From the IMG/VR virus record IMGVR_UViG_3300046492_000043, positions 1 to 20,225 of that record: DNA of 20,225 nt. The stretch is one strand, 5' to 3'. The DNA is from a virus. Made by a program: the position numbers and the translations under genes. The stretch's first letter is position 1. Each line of letters opens with the position of its first letter. Below, piece after piece: positions 3,795 to 9,907 of the stretch. The notes beneath the pieces were generated by a model. That model was not told where the DNA came from. It did no database searches and was given only the letters and a program-made list of their open reading frames with translations.

Positions 3795-4133
3795 ATGCTT
3801 AAGCCATATCTTGATACCATAAAGTATGTCATAATCTTTGCTCTAGGAGTAATGATCGTTTCATTGGGGGCCAAAATTTATTACTACGTGAAAGAGAACG
3901 CTGCTAAGGATGCAATCATTCAGACTCTCACATCTGCTAATGAGACTCAAAAACTGGCTATCTCACAGCTTGAGTTGAACGTCGCTCTTACAAATAAGGT
4001 CATTAAGCTTCGGGATGAACAACTCGAACAGCTTAACGACCAACTAGGACATGTAACAGACGATCTAGGACCATCTGAAAATGATCAGGCAGCAGATTCA
4101 CTTAAAGAACTTATTCGTCGTTTAAGCAAATAA
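3795..4133 (+). CDS. Probable inner-membrane spanin (Rz-like)
   Basis: The 112-residue product has one N-terminal membrane anchor (about residues 10-30, YVIIFALGVMIVSLGAKIYY). A long helical, coiled-coil-type region follows (roughly 35-85, with heptad-like Leu/Ile in QLELNVALTNKVIKLRDEQLEQL), then a charged tail. This is the layout of the inner-membrane member of a two-component spanin. That protein spans the periplasm and, with an outer-membrane lipoprotein, fuses the two membranes at the end of lysis. A matching lipoprotein gene lies at 7668-7958. Spanins are recognised by topology more than sequence, so a non-lytic membrane-anchored coiled-coil protein remains possible. AAAGG at 3783-3787 is the ribosome binding site. 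Confidence 0.66.
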   Translation: MLKPYLDTIKYVIIFALGVMIVSLGAKIYYYVKENAAKDAIIQTLTSANETQKLAISQLELNVALTNKVIKLRDEQLEQLNDQLGHVTDDLGPSENDQAADSLKELIRRLSK

Positions 4134-4151
4134 CATCATAAAGGATTAATT

Positions 4152-5246
4152 ATGCGCGTTGCGGTATTAAAGCTTGGGGCTCGGATTGTATTCGGGGACA
4201 AGATCGGGACATCAGGTGGGACTGGTGAAGCAGTCAGCCTTATCAACATGTTACAAGAAGGTGGGTTTGAAGTTGATTGCTACACCAAGGTTTCGAAGAA
4301 GGATCCTGTACCTTCTCACGTTAAGGTTTTTGACATTAAGGACTATGGCTCAGTGGTCTATGACCATCTTTTTGTTATTAACGGTTCTGTTAATTTCTTC
4401 GGTGGTGCAGAAGATCCAGAACAGATTCTCAACTACAAAGTTATCAACAATTTCCAAGGTCCAGTAACGTATCTCTATTGCGATCCAAACCTTCCTCTAC
4501 GACAAATTTGGCCTTCAGTTCAGAAGAAGGAATGGGCAGCTAATTGGTCTGAGAAAGATATCAACATTACCCGTAAGATTAACATCGTAGCTCAGATTCA
4601 CAACCTCGCAGCTGCTCGAAAGAACCACGAGGGTAATGGATACGAGATCGGTACAGTTGTACATTACCCTTTCTATAAGTTCCCTATGATGTTTGATCAG
4701 GTTCGTTCTGATGAGAAAAACGCCGACATCTCTTATGGTGGAACTTTCCGTTCTGGTCGACGAGAGAAGAAGCTGATTGACTTCTACTTTGGTTACCCAG
4801 AAGAACTTAAGGTCGAGGTATTCGGAAAGATTAAGGCTCCAGATTTTAATGTAAAGAAAGTTGGCAATCTACGACATCCACTGTTTACAGGTGCTGTAGA
4901 TTATAATAAGATGATCGAGAAGATGTCAAGAGCTAAGGCTCACGTTGTCATCGGCGATACAAAATATCCTGATTTCGAAATGATTTCTCAGAGAGCATAC
5001 GAGTCAATTATGGCCGGTTGCGTTACTTTTATCGACTCTGACTTTGATCGTAAGAAGCGTATTTTTGGACACAATAAAAATGTAGCAGATTTCGTCTACG
5101 TAGATAATCGCGAACAAGTCTACAAGCGATTATCTAAATTAAACGATAATGATTTAAAGCGATTTGCAGATATCCAACTCAAAGCCGTTGGTTTTGACCG
5201 TCATAAATACACCCATGACCTCACGGATATCTTGAAAGGATTATAA
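4152..5246 (+). CDS. DNA beta-glucosyltransferase-like protein (T4 BGT family)
   Basis: The 364-residue protein is a GT-B-fold homologue of T4 beta-glucosyltransferase, which moves glucose from UDP-glucose onto 5-hydroxymethylcytosine in phage DNA. Matches run over most of the length. The N-terminal MRVAVLKLGARIVFGDK resembles the T4 start. VINGSVNFFGG (75-85) matches VVNSSINFFGG. LYCDPNLPLRQIWPSV matches LFTDIRLPFSQSWPNV, with Asp111 at the place of catalytic Asp100. YGGTFRSGRRE (195-205) matches the UDP-binding GGSFRSGQRE. RAYESIMAGCVTFIDSDFD (281-299) matches WETMASDAVMLIDEEFD, with Glu284 at the ribose-binding Glu. T4 BGT is 351 aa. Its stop is directly followed by the ATG of the YvcK/HAD gene, so the trio is translated as a unit. 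The donor sugar could differ from glucose, since the neighbours resemble sugar-nucleotide enzymes. dCMP hydroxymethylase (gene 42) is not in this window. Confidence 0.9.
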   Translation: MRVAVLKLGARIVFGDKIGTSGGTGEAVSLINMLQEGGFEVDCYTKVSKKDPVPSHVKVFDIKDYGSVVYDHLFVINGSVNFFGGAEDPEQILNYKVINNFQGPVTYLYCDPNLPLRQIWPSVQKKEWAANWSEKDINITRKINIVAQIHNLAAARKNHEGNGYEIGTVVHYPFYKFPMMFDQVRSDEKNADISYGGTFRSGRREKKLIDFYFGYPEELKVEVFGKIKAPDFNVKKVGNLRHPLFTGAVDYNKMIEKMSRAKAHVVIGDTKYPDFEMISQRAYESIMAGCVTFIDSDFDRKKRIFGHNKNVADFVYVDNREQVYKRLSKLNDNDLKRFADIQLKAVGFDRHKYTHDLTDILKGL

Positions 5247-6965
5247 ATGAAAGTAGTTGTCTTCGCTGGCGGTACAGGTTCAGCACAAATTCAAATTGGT
5301 TTTAAAGAACTATTTGGCGACAAACTAGATTACTCCATTATCACCAATTTGGCAGATAATGGACTATCGACTGGAGATTGTCGCAAAGTAATGGGTGGCA
5401 ATATGATGGGTCCGTCTGACCTACGTAAGAACCAGCTCCATATCCATAAGCTTCGTCATGGCACGACTCCACTTTGGAAGTTCCTAGACAAGCGTGTTAC
5501 TGGTAATAAAGAAACATTCAAAGAGTTTCTACTCGATGGTGTCCAATATTTCGAAAAAGAAGTTCAATCGCTCATCAAGTACGCTGTCGAGTATTTCTTT
5601 GCTCAGCCGGCTGCTAGTGAATTAAATTACGACGACTTCTCAGTCTCTAATGTTATCTACACGGGTCTAGCAGGACTCAATGGAAATAGTCTCTCTAAGG
5701 CTGGACAGATTATGGAAAACATCCTAAACATTCCAGTTGACAGTGTTGTTCCAGTCGGCGATAAGTCACTTTATCTTATGGCAAGAACAGAGTCTGGTGT
5801 TACGATCACAGACGAAGGCGACATCGTAAAGTGGAATTCTGAAGACAAAATCCATTATGCCTTTTATGTAGACAATGAAGGACATTACGCCACCCCTTTT
5901 GCAGACGAACGAGCACTCAGGATTATTGGAGAAGCTGACATCATTCTCTTCTCATCTGGAACTCTTTGGTCTTCTCTCATTCCAACATATCTCTACACGG
6001 GTGTTGGTGATGCTATTGCAAATTCTAAAGCTAAGAAATATCTGCTTATGAACGCGACATCAGACAACGATGTTATTGGCGTAACAGGCGACAAAGTCAT
6101 TGAGATTCTCAGCAACTATCTTCCAGTTGATGAGATCACTATCCTACAATCTGAGGAATCTAAGGGTACTCTGCTTGAGGTCACTAAGTATAATGTTCTA
6201 TGGATGACGAATAGCATCAGCGACTTTAATCCAAAGGTTCACGATGGTCATCGAGTCGTTGCATATATGTTCCGTGATTTCTATTTGCCTTACGCTTATG
6301 ATACTATCGGTTTTGACTATGACGACACACTCGTTGATCGTAAAACCAAGGATCATTCAAATGTTAGTCTACTCAAAGAGTTAAAATCACATTTCAATCT
6401 GTTTATCTGTAGTGGAAACACTCACAGGTCATTCGTTCCAAGGTCTGAGTTAAAAGGCATTCGCATATTTGCTGAGAATGGACTAAACGAATATGAGTGG
6501 CACGAAGACAGATACTTTAAGTTCGTTAAGTGTCTTAAAGAAGAATTTAAACTGACTAACATAGGTGTCAGCAACATTATCGAAGACCTTACAGGTATTG
6601 GATTTCCAAGCAGCAAAATTTCAAATAGAAATAATGCATCAGTTGCTATCAAACCAGTTCACGAAGAATATAGAAAAATTTTAGCCAATATTTTAGGTGA
6701 TATTTTCTATGATTTTAAGGTCATCACGTCTGGCAATACAACTATTGAGATTTTTAATCGTGGTATAAATAAGACAATCGTTATAGAAGAGTATCCATCT
6801 AAGTCAATCACTTTCGTTGGTGATGAGAATTACCCGGGTGGAAATGATTACGAGATTGCTCGTCATCCTGCAGTTAAGTTCTTACAAGTTCGTAATGCAA
6901 ATGATACATACATCTTCTTACGAACTCTCGTACTTTTAAACCGTACAGATTATTGGAATGAGTGA
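5247..6965 (+). CDS. Fusion of YvcK/CofD-like domain and HAD phosphatase
   Basis: This 572-residue protein joins two domains. Residues 1 to about 345 resemble the YvcK/GlmR-CofD family: GGTG at 8-11, a TNLADNGLSTG segment (33-43), GPSDLRKN (55-62) and ADIILFSSGTLWSSLIP (230-246). The last parallels the ADxIVLGPGSLYTSxIPNL region of YvcK. YvcK/GlmR proteins bind UDP-sugars. CofD transfers a phospho-acyl group from a nucleotide diphosphate onto a hydroxyl in F420 synthesis. Residues from about 352 form a capped HAD phosphatase of the Cof/phosphomannomutase type: motif I DYDDT (357-361), motif II Ser389 in CSGN, a Lys around 509 in GINKTIV, and motif IV GDENYPGGND (525-534). All HAD key residues are present. 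The gene abuts the BGT homologue (no gap) and overlaps the nucleotidyltransferase by 1 nt. The substrate is unknown. Confidence 0.82.
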   Translation: MKVVVFAGGTGSAQIQIGFKELFGDKLDYSIITNLADNGLSTGDCRKVMGGNMMGPSDLRKNQLHIHKLRHGTTPLWKFLDKRVTGNKETFKEFLLDGVQYFEKEVQSLIKYAVEYFFAQPAASELNYDDFSVSNVIYTGLAGLNGNSLSKAGQIMENILNIPVDSVVPVGDKSLYLMARTESGVTITDEGDIVKWNSEDKIHYAFYVDNEGHYATPFADERALRIIGEADIILFSSGTLWSSLIPTYLYTGVGDAIANSKAKKYLLMNATSDNDVIGVTGDKVIEILSNYLPVDEITILQSEESKGTLLEVTKYNVLWMTNSISDFNPKVHDGHRVVAYMFRDFYLPYAYDTIGFDYDDTLVDRKTKDHSNVSLLKELKSHFNLFICSGNTHRSFVPRSELKGIRIFAENGLNEYEWHEDRYFKFVKCLKEEFKLTNIGVSNIIEDLTGIGFPSSKISNRNNASVAIKPVHEEYRKILANILGDIFYDFKVITSGNTTIEIFNRGINKTIVIEEYPSKSITFVGDENYPGGNDYEIARHPAVKFLQVRNANDTYIFLRTLVLLNRTDYWNE

Positions 6966-7684
6966 TGACTGACTTAATTATTGTTGCTGCAGGAAACGGA
7001 ACCAGAATGGGAGTCTCTACTCCCAAGGTTCTCTTTCCACTTCATGGTGAACCTAACTTAGATCGTACTCTCAGAATTGCTAAGCAGTCTGAGACTTTTA
7101 GTAGGATCAAGGTGGTTGTTTCTGAAGGTTCACTTAACCATTTCGATCCTTATAAGAACGACGTAGAATTGATTCCTATCAAGTCAGGTTGGGGTGACGG
7201 ACATGCTCTCATTTCAGCTCTCTCAAAGTCCTATAGCTTTGGACCAGCTGTCATCATCTGGGGTGATGCGGTCCTTTTAGATGACGGCATTTTCAGAGAA
7301 CTTTCTTATAAGAATATTAAAAACTCTCCGTTCATTATTCCAGGTGTTTACGAAGATGATCCTTACGTCTGCTTTGAACACAATTACCAGATGCAGGTAA
7401 AGCACACTCTTTTCTCTAAATACAATGAGAGACGAGCTTTTGGTATTCACGACCAGTCGATTTTCAAAGTAAACGCAGAAATTATTTTTCGTGCTCTCAT
7501 GCAGGCCCACGACTTCCTCTGGAAGGACGATCGCTACATCACAGAGAACAGTGAACTAAATCTTTTGAACCTTACACATTATCTCTGGAATGTAGACAGA
7601 CCTGCGATTGTCTATGAGACAAAGCATCCTACATATTCATTCAACACGATAGAAGAGGCATTGAAAATTGAGACTAACATCTAA
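6965..7684 (+). CDS. GlmU/MobA-like nucleotidyltransferase
   Basis: The 239-residue product is a single-domain NTP transferase of the sugar-1-phosphate nucleotidyltransferase fold. The signature AAGNGTRMGVSTPK is at 8-21, followed by VLFPLHGEP, close to the GlmU pattern AGxGTRMxSxxPKVLHP. GDGHA (77-81) corresponds to the uridine-contacting GTGHA of GlmU. VIIWGDAVLL carries the metal-binding Asp101. It should join an NTP to a phosphorylated sugar or similar molecule, giving an activated donor. The acetyltransferase half of GlmU is absent. I prefer the ATG at 6965, which overlaps the upstream stop (TGATG), over a GTG at 6962. Its end overlaps the lipoprotein gene by 17 nt. Together with the BGT homologue and YvcK/HAD fusion it probably supplies the donor for DNA modification. 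An alternative is CofC-like activation for the CofD-like domain. Confidence 0.84.
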   Translation: MTDLIIVAAGNGTRMGVSTPKVLFPLHGEPNLDRTLRIAKQSETFSRIKVVVSEGSLNHFDPYKNDVELIPIKSGWGDGHALISALSKSYSFGPAVIIWGDAVLLDDGIFRELSYKNIKNSPFIIPGVYEDDPYVCFEHNYQMQVKHTLFSKYNERRAFGIHDQSIFKVNAEIIFRALMQAHDFLWKDDRYITENSELNLLNLTHYLWNVDRPAIVYETKHPTYSFNTIEEALKIETNI

Positions 7685-7958
7685 GCTCGCAATGGTAGGA
7701 GTTGGAATTGCCCTCCTATCCGGTTGTACAAAAACAATCACTGTAGAAGTTCCACGGACCGTTGTAATTTCTGTTCCAAAGCCACTTATTAATTGTCCGG
7801 ACATCAATAAGTTCCCTAATCCGGATACCATGACAAACAAGCAGTTGGCCGACACGATTACGGATCTATATAAAAAGCATAAGGTTTGTAAAATCAATAT
7901 GAACAAGATCCAGGAATATGTGGATCAAGCTGTAAAGAACCAATCTCCTCAAAAATAA
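7668..7958 (+). CDS. Probable outer-membrane spanin lipoprotein (Rz1-like)
   Basis: The 96-residue precursor has a basic N-terminus (MRLTSK), a hydrophobic core and a lipobox LLSG|C with lipidated Cys20, giving a mature lipoprotein of about 77 aa. I chose the TTG at 7668 (AGAGG at 7654-7658 upstream) because the ATG at 7692 would leave no positive charge before the hydrophobic core. The mature part has VPRTVVISVPKPLINCP, then a helical segment and two cysteines (CP..., VCK) in a spacing I associate with Rz1-like lipoproteins of phages of alphaproteobacteria. It should reside in the outer membrane and pair with the coiled-coil protein at 3795-4133. Unusually, about 3.5 kb of sugar-nucleotide and DNA-modification genes separate the two. 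Confidence 0.75.
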   Translation: MRLTSKLAMVGVGIALLSGCTKTITVEVPRTVVISVPKPLINCPDINKFPNPDTMTNKQLADTITDLYKKHKVCKINMNKIQEYVDQAVKNQSPQK

Positions 7959-8775: not shown

Positions 8776-9358
8776 ATATATCGGAGATATTCATGCCAAT
8801 TTTAAGAATTGGCTAGCGATTACTGACGGTGCTGAAGAGTCAGTGCAAGTTGGCGACTATGGTATTGGCTTTCGGCAGCCTCCATATGGTTCTTTTGCTC
8901 CATCGAATCATCGTTTCATTCGTGGAAACCACGATGATCCGATTCGTTGTAAAGGCGAATCTAACTACATCGAAGATGGTACTATCGAGGGAGACATCAT
9001 GTACGTTGGTGGTGCTCTTTCTATCGATCGTGCTTATCGGACTGAAGGTCGTGATTGGTGGAGAGATGAAGAACTATCTTACGATCAGTTCAACGATATA
9101 CTAGACATCTACGCAGACCAGAAGCCAAAAATGATGGTGACTCATGAGTGCCCAGACTACGTGGCTACATGCATGATGTCTCATTATCGTCTCACAAAGT
9201 TCAACGACAAGTCAATCACGAGACAAGCTTTTGATGCGATGTGGGACATCCACATGCCAGAAATTTGGATATTTGGTCACTGGCACCTAAATTATGATCA
9301 GAAAATCGGAGACACGAGATTCATCTGTCTCAACATTGAGGAGTATATAGACATATGA
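8768..9358 (+). CDS. Calcineurin-like metallophosphoesterase
   Basis: The 196-residue protein carries the full set of metallophosphoesterase motifs: GDIHANF (Asp7, His9), GDYG (Asp30), GNHDD (Asn54, His55), TH (His126) and GHWH (170-173). These bind a two-metal centre that hydrolyses phosphate mono- or diesters. Phage members include serine/threonine phosphatases of the lambda type and nucleotide phosphodiesterases; the substrate cannot be read from sequence. I use the ATG at 8768, because AAAGGA (8755-8760) is correctly spaced and the MVRYIGDIH start is typical. An extension to 8708 would lie inside the upstream gene. The stop overlaps the next gene (ATGA at 9355-9358). Expression from P1 early in infection suggests remodelling of host phosphorylation or nucleotide signals (inference). 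Confidence 0.88.
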   Translation: MVRYIGDIHANFKNWLAITDGAEESVQVGDYGIGFRQPPYGSFAPSNHRFIRGNHDDPIRCKGESNYIEDGTIEGDIMYVGGALSIDRAYRTEGRDWWRDEELSYDQFNDILDIYADQKPKMMVTHECPDYVATCMMSHYRLTKFNDKSITRQAFDAMWDIHMPEIWIFGHWHLNYDQKIGDTRFICLNIEEYIDI

Positions 9359-9582
9359 CACATCATGTTATTGACGCTACTTACGACGCAGTTCTTCGCG
9401 ACTGGTACAAAATTGAACTGGGAGATAAGTCAATTGTCTTCGGTCGCATTTATGAGGATAAGAAAGGTCGTTTCAACGACGGTGATCAGATTCGCACTTC
9501 TATGGTCATGAACCATGTTGGAGACATCGTTAGGACGTGTAACACGACTTATAAGCTGGAAAATCCTTATGAGCAGCTCTGA
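9355..9582 (+). CDS. Early hypothetical protein, 75 aa
   Basis: The start overlaps the phosphoesterase stop by 4 nt (ATGA), and the end overlaps the zinc-ribbon gene by 14 nt. The product MTHHVIDATYDAVLRDWYKIE... reads like a small beta-rich protein, with alternating hydrophobic residues in YKIELGDKSIVFGRIYED. The only cysteine is near the C-terminus, and there is no membrane segment. It resembles small phage proteins with paired strands but fits no family I can name. Confidence 0.72.
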   Translation: MTHHVIDATYDAVLRDWYKIELGDKSIVFGRIYEDKKGRFNDGDQIRTSMVMNHVGDIVRTCNTTYKLENPYEQL

Positions 9583-9907
9583 GAAAAAGCCAATCAATCG
9601 GGAAGCGTATCCATTTTATGGGTATGCTCCTGGTGATTACATGGGAAGATGTAACACCTGTGAAACAGAGATGTGGAATGTTGACAAACACGCTTACCAT
9701 TGCATTGATTGTGCTGTCATTCAAGCTAAGAAAACAATTGACAACCTTAACCAGGTAATCGCCAGTAATGTCCGTCGCGACACTGTGCATACGACTTACC
9801 TAACGGGAGAAGAGTACGATACGCTTCAGGAAGCCCTGGCAAACCCTACAAAGCCTACTCAGAAATTAATTGATCTGTTTCGAAAAAAGACGTTTACATC
9901 GATCTAA
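9569..9907 (+). CDS. Zinc-ribbon protein with DUF1778-like tail
   Basis: The chosen start is ATG 9569, giving 112 aa; a longer frame from 9515 lies inside the upstream gene. Residues from about 24 hold CNTC...HCIDC, two CxxC knuckles 16 residues apart that should bind zinc, preceded by YAPGDYMGR. This looks like the small zinc-binding proteins common in phages. The C-terminal segment LTGEEYDTLQEALANPTKPTQKLIDLFRKK resembles the ending of DUF1778-type antitoxin proteins (the DxALENPPxPNxxLxxL pattern). A nucleic-acid or protein-binding role is likely but undetermined. The last 15 bases contain the -35 of promoter P2. Confidence 0.76.
   Translation: MSSSEKKPINREAYPFYGYAPGDYMGRCNTCETEMWNVDKHAYHCIDCAVIQAKKTIDNLNQVIASNVRRDTVHTTYLTGEEYDTLQEALANPTKPTQKLIDLFRKKTFTSI

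Follow-up and report, generated by a model that had tools for sequence, protein, structure and literature searches.

What would a phage use a protein for in which a YvcK/CofD-like domain is joined to a HAD domain? The question is raised by a gene in a stretch of 20,225 nucleotides (the window) of the virus record IMGVR_UViG_3300046492_000043 (Table 1), which an earlier note had described as a YvcK/CofD-like domain fused to a HAD phosphatase in one phage protein. Most likely, the fusion helps to make an activated sugar that disguises phage DNA from bacterial defences. In its specific form, to which we assign a probability of about 0.7 on sequence comparison and structure prediction, the fusion and the nucleotidyltransferase encoded directly downstream would form a supply module of the phage's own, providing the nucleotide sugar with which hydroxymethylcytosine in its DNA is glycosylated. 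That phages can encode the supply of sugar nucleotides for modifying their DNA is already known; a version based on this fusion would be new. Sugar modifications of DNA decide restriction and CRISPR sensitivity, and the fusion predicts which uncultured phages, including those of 340-460 kb, carry DNA modified with a phage-made sugar.

Table 1. Features of the fusion gene and its two neighbours (window positions; residues are those of the fusion protein).
Feature	Position	Strand	Remarks
T4-type DNA beta-glucosyltransferase (BGT)	4152..5246	+	364 aa; PF09198 E 3.7e-28, phrog_7922 E 3.6e-63
YvcK/CofD-like + PMM-like HAD fusion	5247..6965	+	572 aa; ATG start, no internal stop
YvcK/CofD-fold domain, residues 1-~349	5247..6293	+	PF01933, TIGR01826 E 5e-22
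GGTG, residues 8-11	5268..5279	+	G8, G9, G11 invariant in 27/27
GPSDLRKN, residues 55-62 (family signature GPSDxRKN)	5409..5432	+	one position excepted, invariant in 27/27
SSGTLWSSLIPTY, residues 236-248	5952..5990	+	G238, T239, W241, S243, L244, P246, Y248 invariant in 27/27
HAD-IIB domain, phosphomannomutase/alpha-phosphoglucomutase type, residues ~352-565	6300..6941	+	PF03332; profile matches
DYDDT, nucleophile/acid-base motif, residues 357-361	6315..6329	+	D357, D359, T361 invariant in 27/27
NRNN...EEYR, residues 460-476	6624..6674	+	R461, R476 invariant in 27/27
GDENYPGGND, residues 525-534	6819..6848	+	acidic motif IV, PMM form
GlmU-like sugar-1-phosphate nucleotidyltransferase (NTPT)	6962..7684	+	240 aa; PF12804 E 2.4e-11

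The fusion and its neighbours

The window belongs to a T4-superfamily phage, of which the DNA polymerase C-terminus, a DnaB-type helicase and the major head protein were identified by family; the last shares 70% identity with its counterpart in Rhizobium phage RHph_I1_18 and 64% with the one in Stenotrophomonas phage DLP_6. The fusion is a real single protein and not a product of chance or assembly, because full-length copies occur in many unrelated contigs. Its AlphaFold2 model, built from 27 homologues (30-41% identity), has a pLDDT of 92.5 and a pTM of 0.89. All the motifs named in the earlier note (GGTG, GPSDLRKN, SSGTLWSSLIP, DYDDT, CSGN at residues 388-391, and GDE..GGND) are present, and across the homologues nearly all of their residues are invariant or near-invariant. 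The N-terminal half is the better conserved, with a mean column identity of 44% versus 34% for the HAD half, and both active sites are kept in the fusion homologues of phages and bacteria.

Missing from the first reading were the two genes that give the pathway: a DNA glucosyltransferase gene before the fusion and a nucleotidyltransferase gene after it. The three genes are contiguous: the TAA stop of the BGT gene directly abuts the ATG of the fusion, and the GTG start of NTPT overlaps the fusion stop (an ATG follows at 6965). BGT matches PDB 1bgt at E 7e-44 over 338 aa, almost its whole length, reaches the Pfam cut-off for PF09198 with 98.8 bits, and keeps the T4 residues E22, D100, R191, R195, R269, and E272. 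The best match to the NTPT family profile is presented by the GlmU uridyltransferases (5vmk, E 4.5e-15). Its model (pLDDT 95.3) has a nucleotidyltransferase fold that Foldseek pairs with GlmU (E 4e-16, TM by query length 0.82), and R15, K22, W100, G101, and D102 (the WGD motif) are invariant; the protein reached no GlmU equivalog cut-off. No hydroxymethylase was found within the 20-kb window, a point against the supply module.

The two spanin genes of a phage are normally adjacent. Here, an Rz-like spanin candidate (window 3795-4133, phrog_214 E 3e-5) lies just 5' of the three genes and an Rz1-like spanin (window 7668-7958, PF23793 E 7e-10) just 3' of them, as if BGT, fusion, and NTPT had been inserted between the pair.

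The YvcK-like domain

The fold claimed for the N-terminal part was recovered by both profiles and structure prediction: Pfam CofD (PF01933) covers residues 3-282 (E 2.7e-26, over the cut-off), and Foldseek matches this part of the model to YvcK structures (2ppv E 1.5e-16, TM by target 0.78; 2ppv/2o2z ca. 0.8 by target length). The NCBIfam models rank YvcK/GlmR (TIGR01826, E 5e-22) first, followed by a GAK-system CofD-like family and then CofD itself (TIGR01819, E 0.058). The TIGR01826 score of 78.7 bits stays below the curated cut-off of 196 bits; that of TIGR01819 (CofD 2-phospho-L-lactate transferase) is 12.4 bits over residues 3-38 only, under a cut-off of 257 bits. The family-profile search gives the same order, with UPF0052 structures at E 4e-28 and CofD as the weakest PDB match (E 0.017).

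This order bears on an alternative modelled on coenzyme F420, whose synthesis is known to pair CofC, a MobA-like NTP transferase, with CofD. Here a CofC-like NTPT would turn a phosphorylated compound into NDP-X, the YvcK/CofD domain would move phospho-X onto the hydroxyl group of an acceptor, releasing NMP, and a phosphate would be trimmed off by the HAD domain, so that the DNA or its sugar would carry a phosphodiester-linked group. The known CofC/CofD pairing speaks for it, as do the weaker Foldseek matches to FbiA/CofD (3c3d, 6uw7; E about 1e-9) and a stand-alone GPSDIRKNQ protein whose gene overlaps a HAD gene and belongs to a large biosynthetic cluster, with a glycosyltransferase close by (L020-L023). 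The domain is nevertheless far closer to YvcK than to CofD, and we regard F420-like chemistry as improbable. A guanylate-kinase-like neighbour, considered as a sign of GMP recycling, was dropped: BGT phages that lack the fusion have the gene as well (L079), so that the two are not tied to each other.

With YvcK/GlmR (UPF0052) the fusion shares the fold and the motif order GGTG / D-x-G-S-(S/T)-G / D-(I/L)-R, while PPGDIRN has become GPSDxRKN and GPGSLYTS-LPN has become (S)SGTQWSSLIPTY. It differs in being joined to a HAD domain, in lying outside the canonical operon, and in two of the three proposed GlmR catalytic residues. Joint mutation of D40, D41, and N198 in Listeria GlmR cuts its uridyltransferase activity about 100-fold (PMC10128056); the counterparts in the fusion are D37 (kept), N38, and T247. 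Invariant in the N-terminal half of all 27 homologues are G8, G9, G11, Q16, N34, D37, G39, S41, G43, R46, GPSD, R60-N62, R83, D189-E190, W241, Y248, D273, and D275.

The altered residues would suit a domain that acts as a sensor only, binding the end-product NDP-sugar and tuning the fused mutase without catalysis, which is compatible with a supply module. Bacterial GlmR offers a precedent: PMC7525490 reports that it binds UDP-GlcNAc and describes it as a regulator of GlmS. Against this, GPSDxRKN, DNGxSTG, GTxWSSLIPTY, R83, D273, and D275 are invariant or nearly so in phages and bacteria, and being the better conserved of the two, the N-terminal domain looks catalytic. Moreover, the staphylococcal structure 2ppv likewise has D-N at the first GlmR residue pair (D37-N38 here), and a separate YvcK-only protein persists where the HAD domain joins NTPT instead (see below). 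A purely sensory role appears rather unlikely to us; we give the domain an even chance of being catalytic.

In the two bacterial genomes that were searched, a second, weaker YvcK-family match exists alongside the fusion. Two 'Listeria phage' records (H3, OR846774.1, here L003, and H2, OR848159.1) were rejected as fusion carriers, as only the YvcK half matched; the H3 (L003) protein is a plain 322-aa GlmR-like protein, and its gene is presumably host DNA filed as phage. The stand-alone protein with the GPSDIRKNQ signature has 418 aa (L020:7998-9254) and its gene overlaps a separate HAD_2 gene (9235-9894), also in L021-L023; neighbours in these Anaerocolumna, Clostridium, and Lachnotalea genomes are a UDPGT/EryCIII-like glycosyltransferase and a multidomain ORF of ca. 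2,300 aa.

The HAD domain

The C-terminal part has a HAD fold, as had been claimed, with two Pfam families over their cut-offs: PMM (PF03332, E 5.8e-7, 30 bits against a cut-off of 22.4, residues 487-560) and Hydrolase_3 (E 1.6e-5). PF03332 was not reported for the fusion homologues L006 and L011. The catalytic residues are retained too; D357, D359, T361, R461, R476, K509, and E527 are invariant across the 27 homologues. The word phosphatase fared less well. The top profile matches (phosphomannomutase 7myv, E 2e-15; alpha-phosphoglucomutase 4bnd, E 2.5e-14) and fold matches (4bnd and phosphomannomutases, TM by target length ca. 0.6) are all phosphomannomutases or alpha-phosphoglucomutases, and since the nearest relatives of the domain are phosphohexomutases, the label is doubtful. 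Judging from sequence and model, we incline slightly towards a phosphosugar mutase over a phosphatase.

Common to the domain and to the eukaryotic-type phosphomannomutases and the Lactococcus alpha-phosphoglucomutase (4bnd) are the HAD-IIB fold, FDxD(D/G)TL...R (in phages), RN-type and EER-type arginines, and GD..GGND; in the alignment to 7myv, R461 and R476 match the 'RNG' and 'EER' arginines. Differences are an identity of only about 20%, the absence of the 'PIGR' arginine region (this arginine was not found in the fusion alignment), and the junction to YvcK, or to NTPT in one phage. In the bacterial homologues D526 is replaced by N. Acinetobacter phage AB1I1T encodes a stand-alone PMM-like HAD protein without a YvcK domain (L050:7354-8103, PF03332 E 5.8e-14); its gene is separated by ca. 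2.3 kb from those for alpha- and beta-glucosyltransferases.

A second way of joining the domains

The earlier note held that the fusion places both domains in one pathway. This is supported, and strengthened by the contig L070 (IMGVR_UViG_3300033463_000045), where a 338-aa YvcK-like protein standing alone comes after BGT, and next a 444-aa protein in which HAD (residues 4-210) is fused to NTPT (218-442). With BGT as the constant neighbour, YvcK, HAD, and NTPT thus occur in two alternative combinations and so appear to serve one pathway, and the HAD-NTPT junction would favour a HAD domain that produces the sugar-1-phosphate for activation by NTPT. In this way, evidence from fusion, re-fusion, and operon structure ties the orphan YvcK fold, for which an enzyme and a sensor role are debated, to a defined pathway.

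In the scheme that we propose, the PMM-like HAD domain would convert a hexose-6-phosphate or pentose-5-phosphate into the sugar-1-phosphate; NTPT would couple this to an NTP, probably UTP given its GlmU-like active-site region, yielding the nucleotide sugar; and BGT or another DNA glycosyltransferase would pass the sugar to hydroxymethylated DNA. The YvcK domain would share substrates or products with these steps, be it as a second sugar-1-phosphate/NDP-sugar enzyme or as an NDP-sugar-binding control domain. What the data show directly are the identity of the domains, the conservation of their active sites and gene neighbourhood, the re-partitioning in L070, and the displacement by an RB69-type module described below; the glycosylated DNA of the window phage, the reactions, their order, and the sugar are what we infer from sequence, structure prediction, neighbourhood, and phylogeny.

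Distribution of the cassette

Far from being confined to one phage protein, as first described, the fusion is widespread in phages, with full-length copies in some 25 distinct loci; it also occurs in 9 gut-Firmicutes MAGs. The phage loci include many IMG/VR contigs and LR756500 (462 kb), the only carrier of the full fusion in the phage collection. A first phage set was dereplicated to 18 loci, to which a BGT-seeded scan added about eight. Three scans, each seeded with a different member of the trio, agree: from the fusion, NTPT was found in 7/7 loci and BGT in 6/7; from NTPT, the fusion in 20 of 21, the exception being cut by the contig end; and from BGT, both fusion and NTPT in 33 of 36 contigs (several of them near-identical, and counting the re-partitioned L070). 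BGT, fusion, and NTPT, often with a dCMP hydroxymethylase nearby, are a conserved cassette. A TS-family gene (a homologue of the T4 gp42-like dCMP hydroxymethylase) is near it in 13 of the 18 distinct phage loci, and the one encoded by L006 shares 55-57% identity with the dCMP hydroxymethylases of T4-like phages. At the seventh fusion-seeded locus (L004), a TET-associated / beta-glucosyl-HMC-alpha-glucosyltransferase takes the place of BGT, suggesting that the module serves DNA glycosyltransferases in general.

All nine Firmicutes MAGs have NTPT directly upstream of the fusion, with genes for GT8/GT2 glycosyltransferases, a flippase, and CMP-sugar synthetase-like and SIS proteins as neighbours, a setting that speaks for a role in sugar-nucleotide supply. 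A class-wide survey of 391 genomes matched only the seed, so this bacterial form is rare. Its polysaccharide loci could mean that the phage fusion, too, is an accessory metabolic gene for host surface glycans or exclusion, unrelated to phage DNA. In phages, however, the fusion keeps company with DNA glycosyltransferases (BGT, or in L004 TAGT), and frequently with dCMP hydroxymethylase as well, and no surface-glycan genes were recognised in the phage cassettes, which makes this explanation very improbable.

The earlier note knew of no characterised protein with such a fusion, and our literature searches, incomplete in coverage, found no description either; CofD is not mentioned in the main text of MetaGPA (PMC8670742). 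The BFVD structure search gave no fused match, and a single-sequence viral scan found no relatives of the fusion; alignment queries were needed to detect those among viruses.

Two kinase-like genes accompany the cassette as well (e.g. L030:5360-5932, L043:10783-11433), a thymidylate-kinase-like gene in 13/18 loci and a guanylate-kinase-like gene in 12/18. In three phages (L006:7024-7830, L024:9192, L046:7099-8121) a methyltransferase-family gene is situated between BGT and the fusion, and its product might methylate the sugar or the base.

Glycosyltransferase phylogeny and the RB69-type module

In the phylogeny (DISPLACEMENT) the cassette phages have BGTs that group in a single clade (100/100), separate from the BGTs of all eight T4-type phages examined that have BGT only (T4, CC31, Merlin, Muldoon, KMB26, and Acinetobacter, Enterococcus, and Lactobacillus phages). 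Like the T4 system of BGT and dCMP hydroxymethylase, the cassette has the BGT UDP-site and catalytic residues and often a hydroxymethylase nearby; T4 differs in using host UDP-glucose, without fusion or NTPT. The cassette clade (window 4152-5246, alignment A10) has invariant K7, R11, and G18 (T4 numbering) that differ from T4 BGT, and these differences, with the UDP-site residues kept, hint at another donor sugar or acceptor.

Some points count against a supply module. Three BGTs of the cassette clade, nested inside it as a single group, occur without the fusion. T4-like phages normally use host UDP-glucose, so that such a module would be needed only if the sugar were unusual or limiting. Nor, to our knowledge, does the synthesis of sugar nucleotides usually involve a YvcK domain.

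Two of the phages with nested BGTs (contigs of 152 and 310 kb) lack both fusion and NTPT and carry an RB69-type module instead: an A5P isomerase homologous to RB69 ORF055 (identities of 53% and 48%), together with an NTPT-APH kinase fusion of 541-552 aa that has RB69 ORF053_052 as its homologue. The third contig, of 13.7 kb, is too short to judge. Over contigs of at least 80 kb, the displacement of the fusion by the RB69-type module has a Fisher p of 0.0095, a value that ignores that it is one phylogenetic event; being a single evolutionary event, the displacement supports functional equivalence of the modules without proving it. The fusion-bearing records searched, all other than the window, contained no close ORF055; LR756500 and its near-copy G002 have a single distant SIS protein, with 33% identity to ORF055. 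This protein (L092:1486-2712, 408 aa) has its SIS domain at the C-terminus, preceded by a further N-terminal part. Both modules are present in the bacterial loci L011 and L015, and need therefore not make the same sugar.

RB69 DNA carries arabinosyl-hmC, for which ORF055 and ORF053_052 are the proposed UDP-arabinose genes (PMC6024577). Efficient propagation of the phage Thanatos requires the homologue TH1_060, and its UDP-xylose pyrophosphorylase TH1_063 makes UDP-xylose in vitro (PMC12838424). Like the cassette, these are phage sugar-nucleotide genes proposed to feed a DNA glycosyltransferase, and a nucleotidyltransferase is common to all three. Unlike the cassette, the RB69 module combines a SIS isomerase with an APH-like kinase fused to NTPT; in a homology search of the fusion cassette against it, only NTPT was detectably related (E 3e-8), with no homologue of YvcK or of the PMM-like HAD.

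A more far-reaching proposal remains tentative, and we doubt it more than we believe it: the YvcK domain would be a true sugar-nucleotide enzyme that, alongside a PMM-type mutase and a GlmU-like transferase, makes an NDP-sugar new to DNA, many uncultured T4-like and huge phages would carry a new glycosyl-hydroxymethylcytosine, and the module would also decorate bacterial surface glycans.

As a further precedent for phage-encoded sugar supply, Lactobacillus phage ATCCB has a gene for UDP-galactopyranose mutase (L053:5071-6168) directly after thymidylate synthase and BGT, a gene order suggesting a galactofuranose-type DNA modification.
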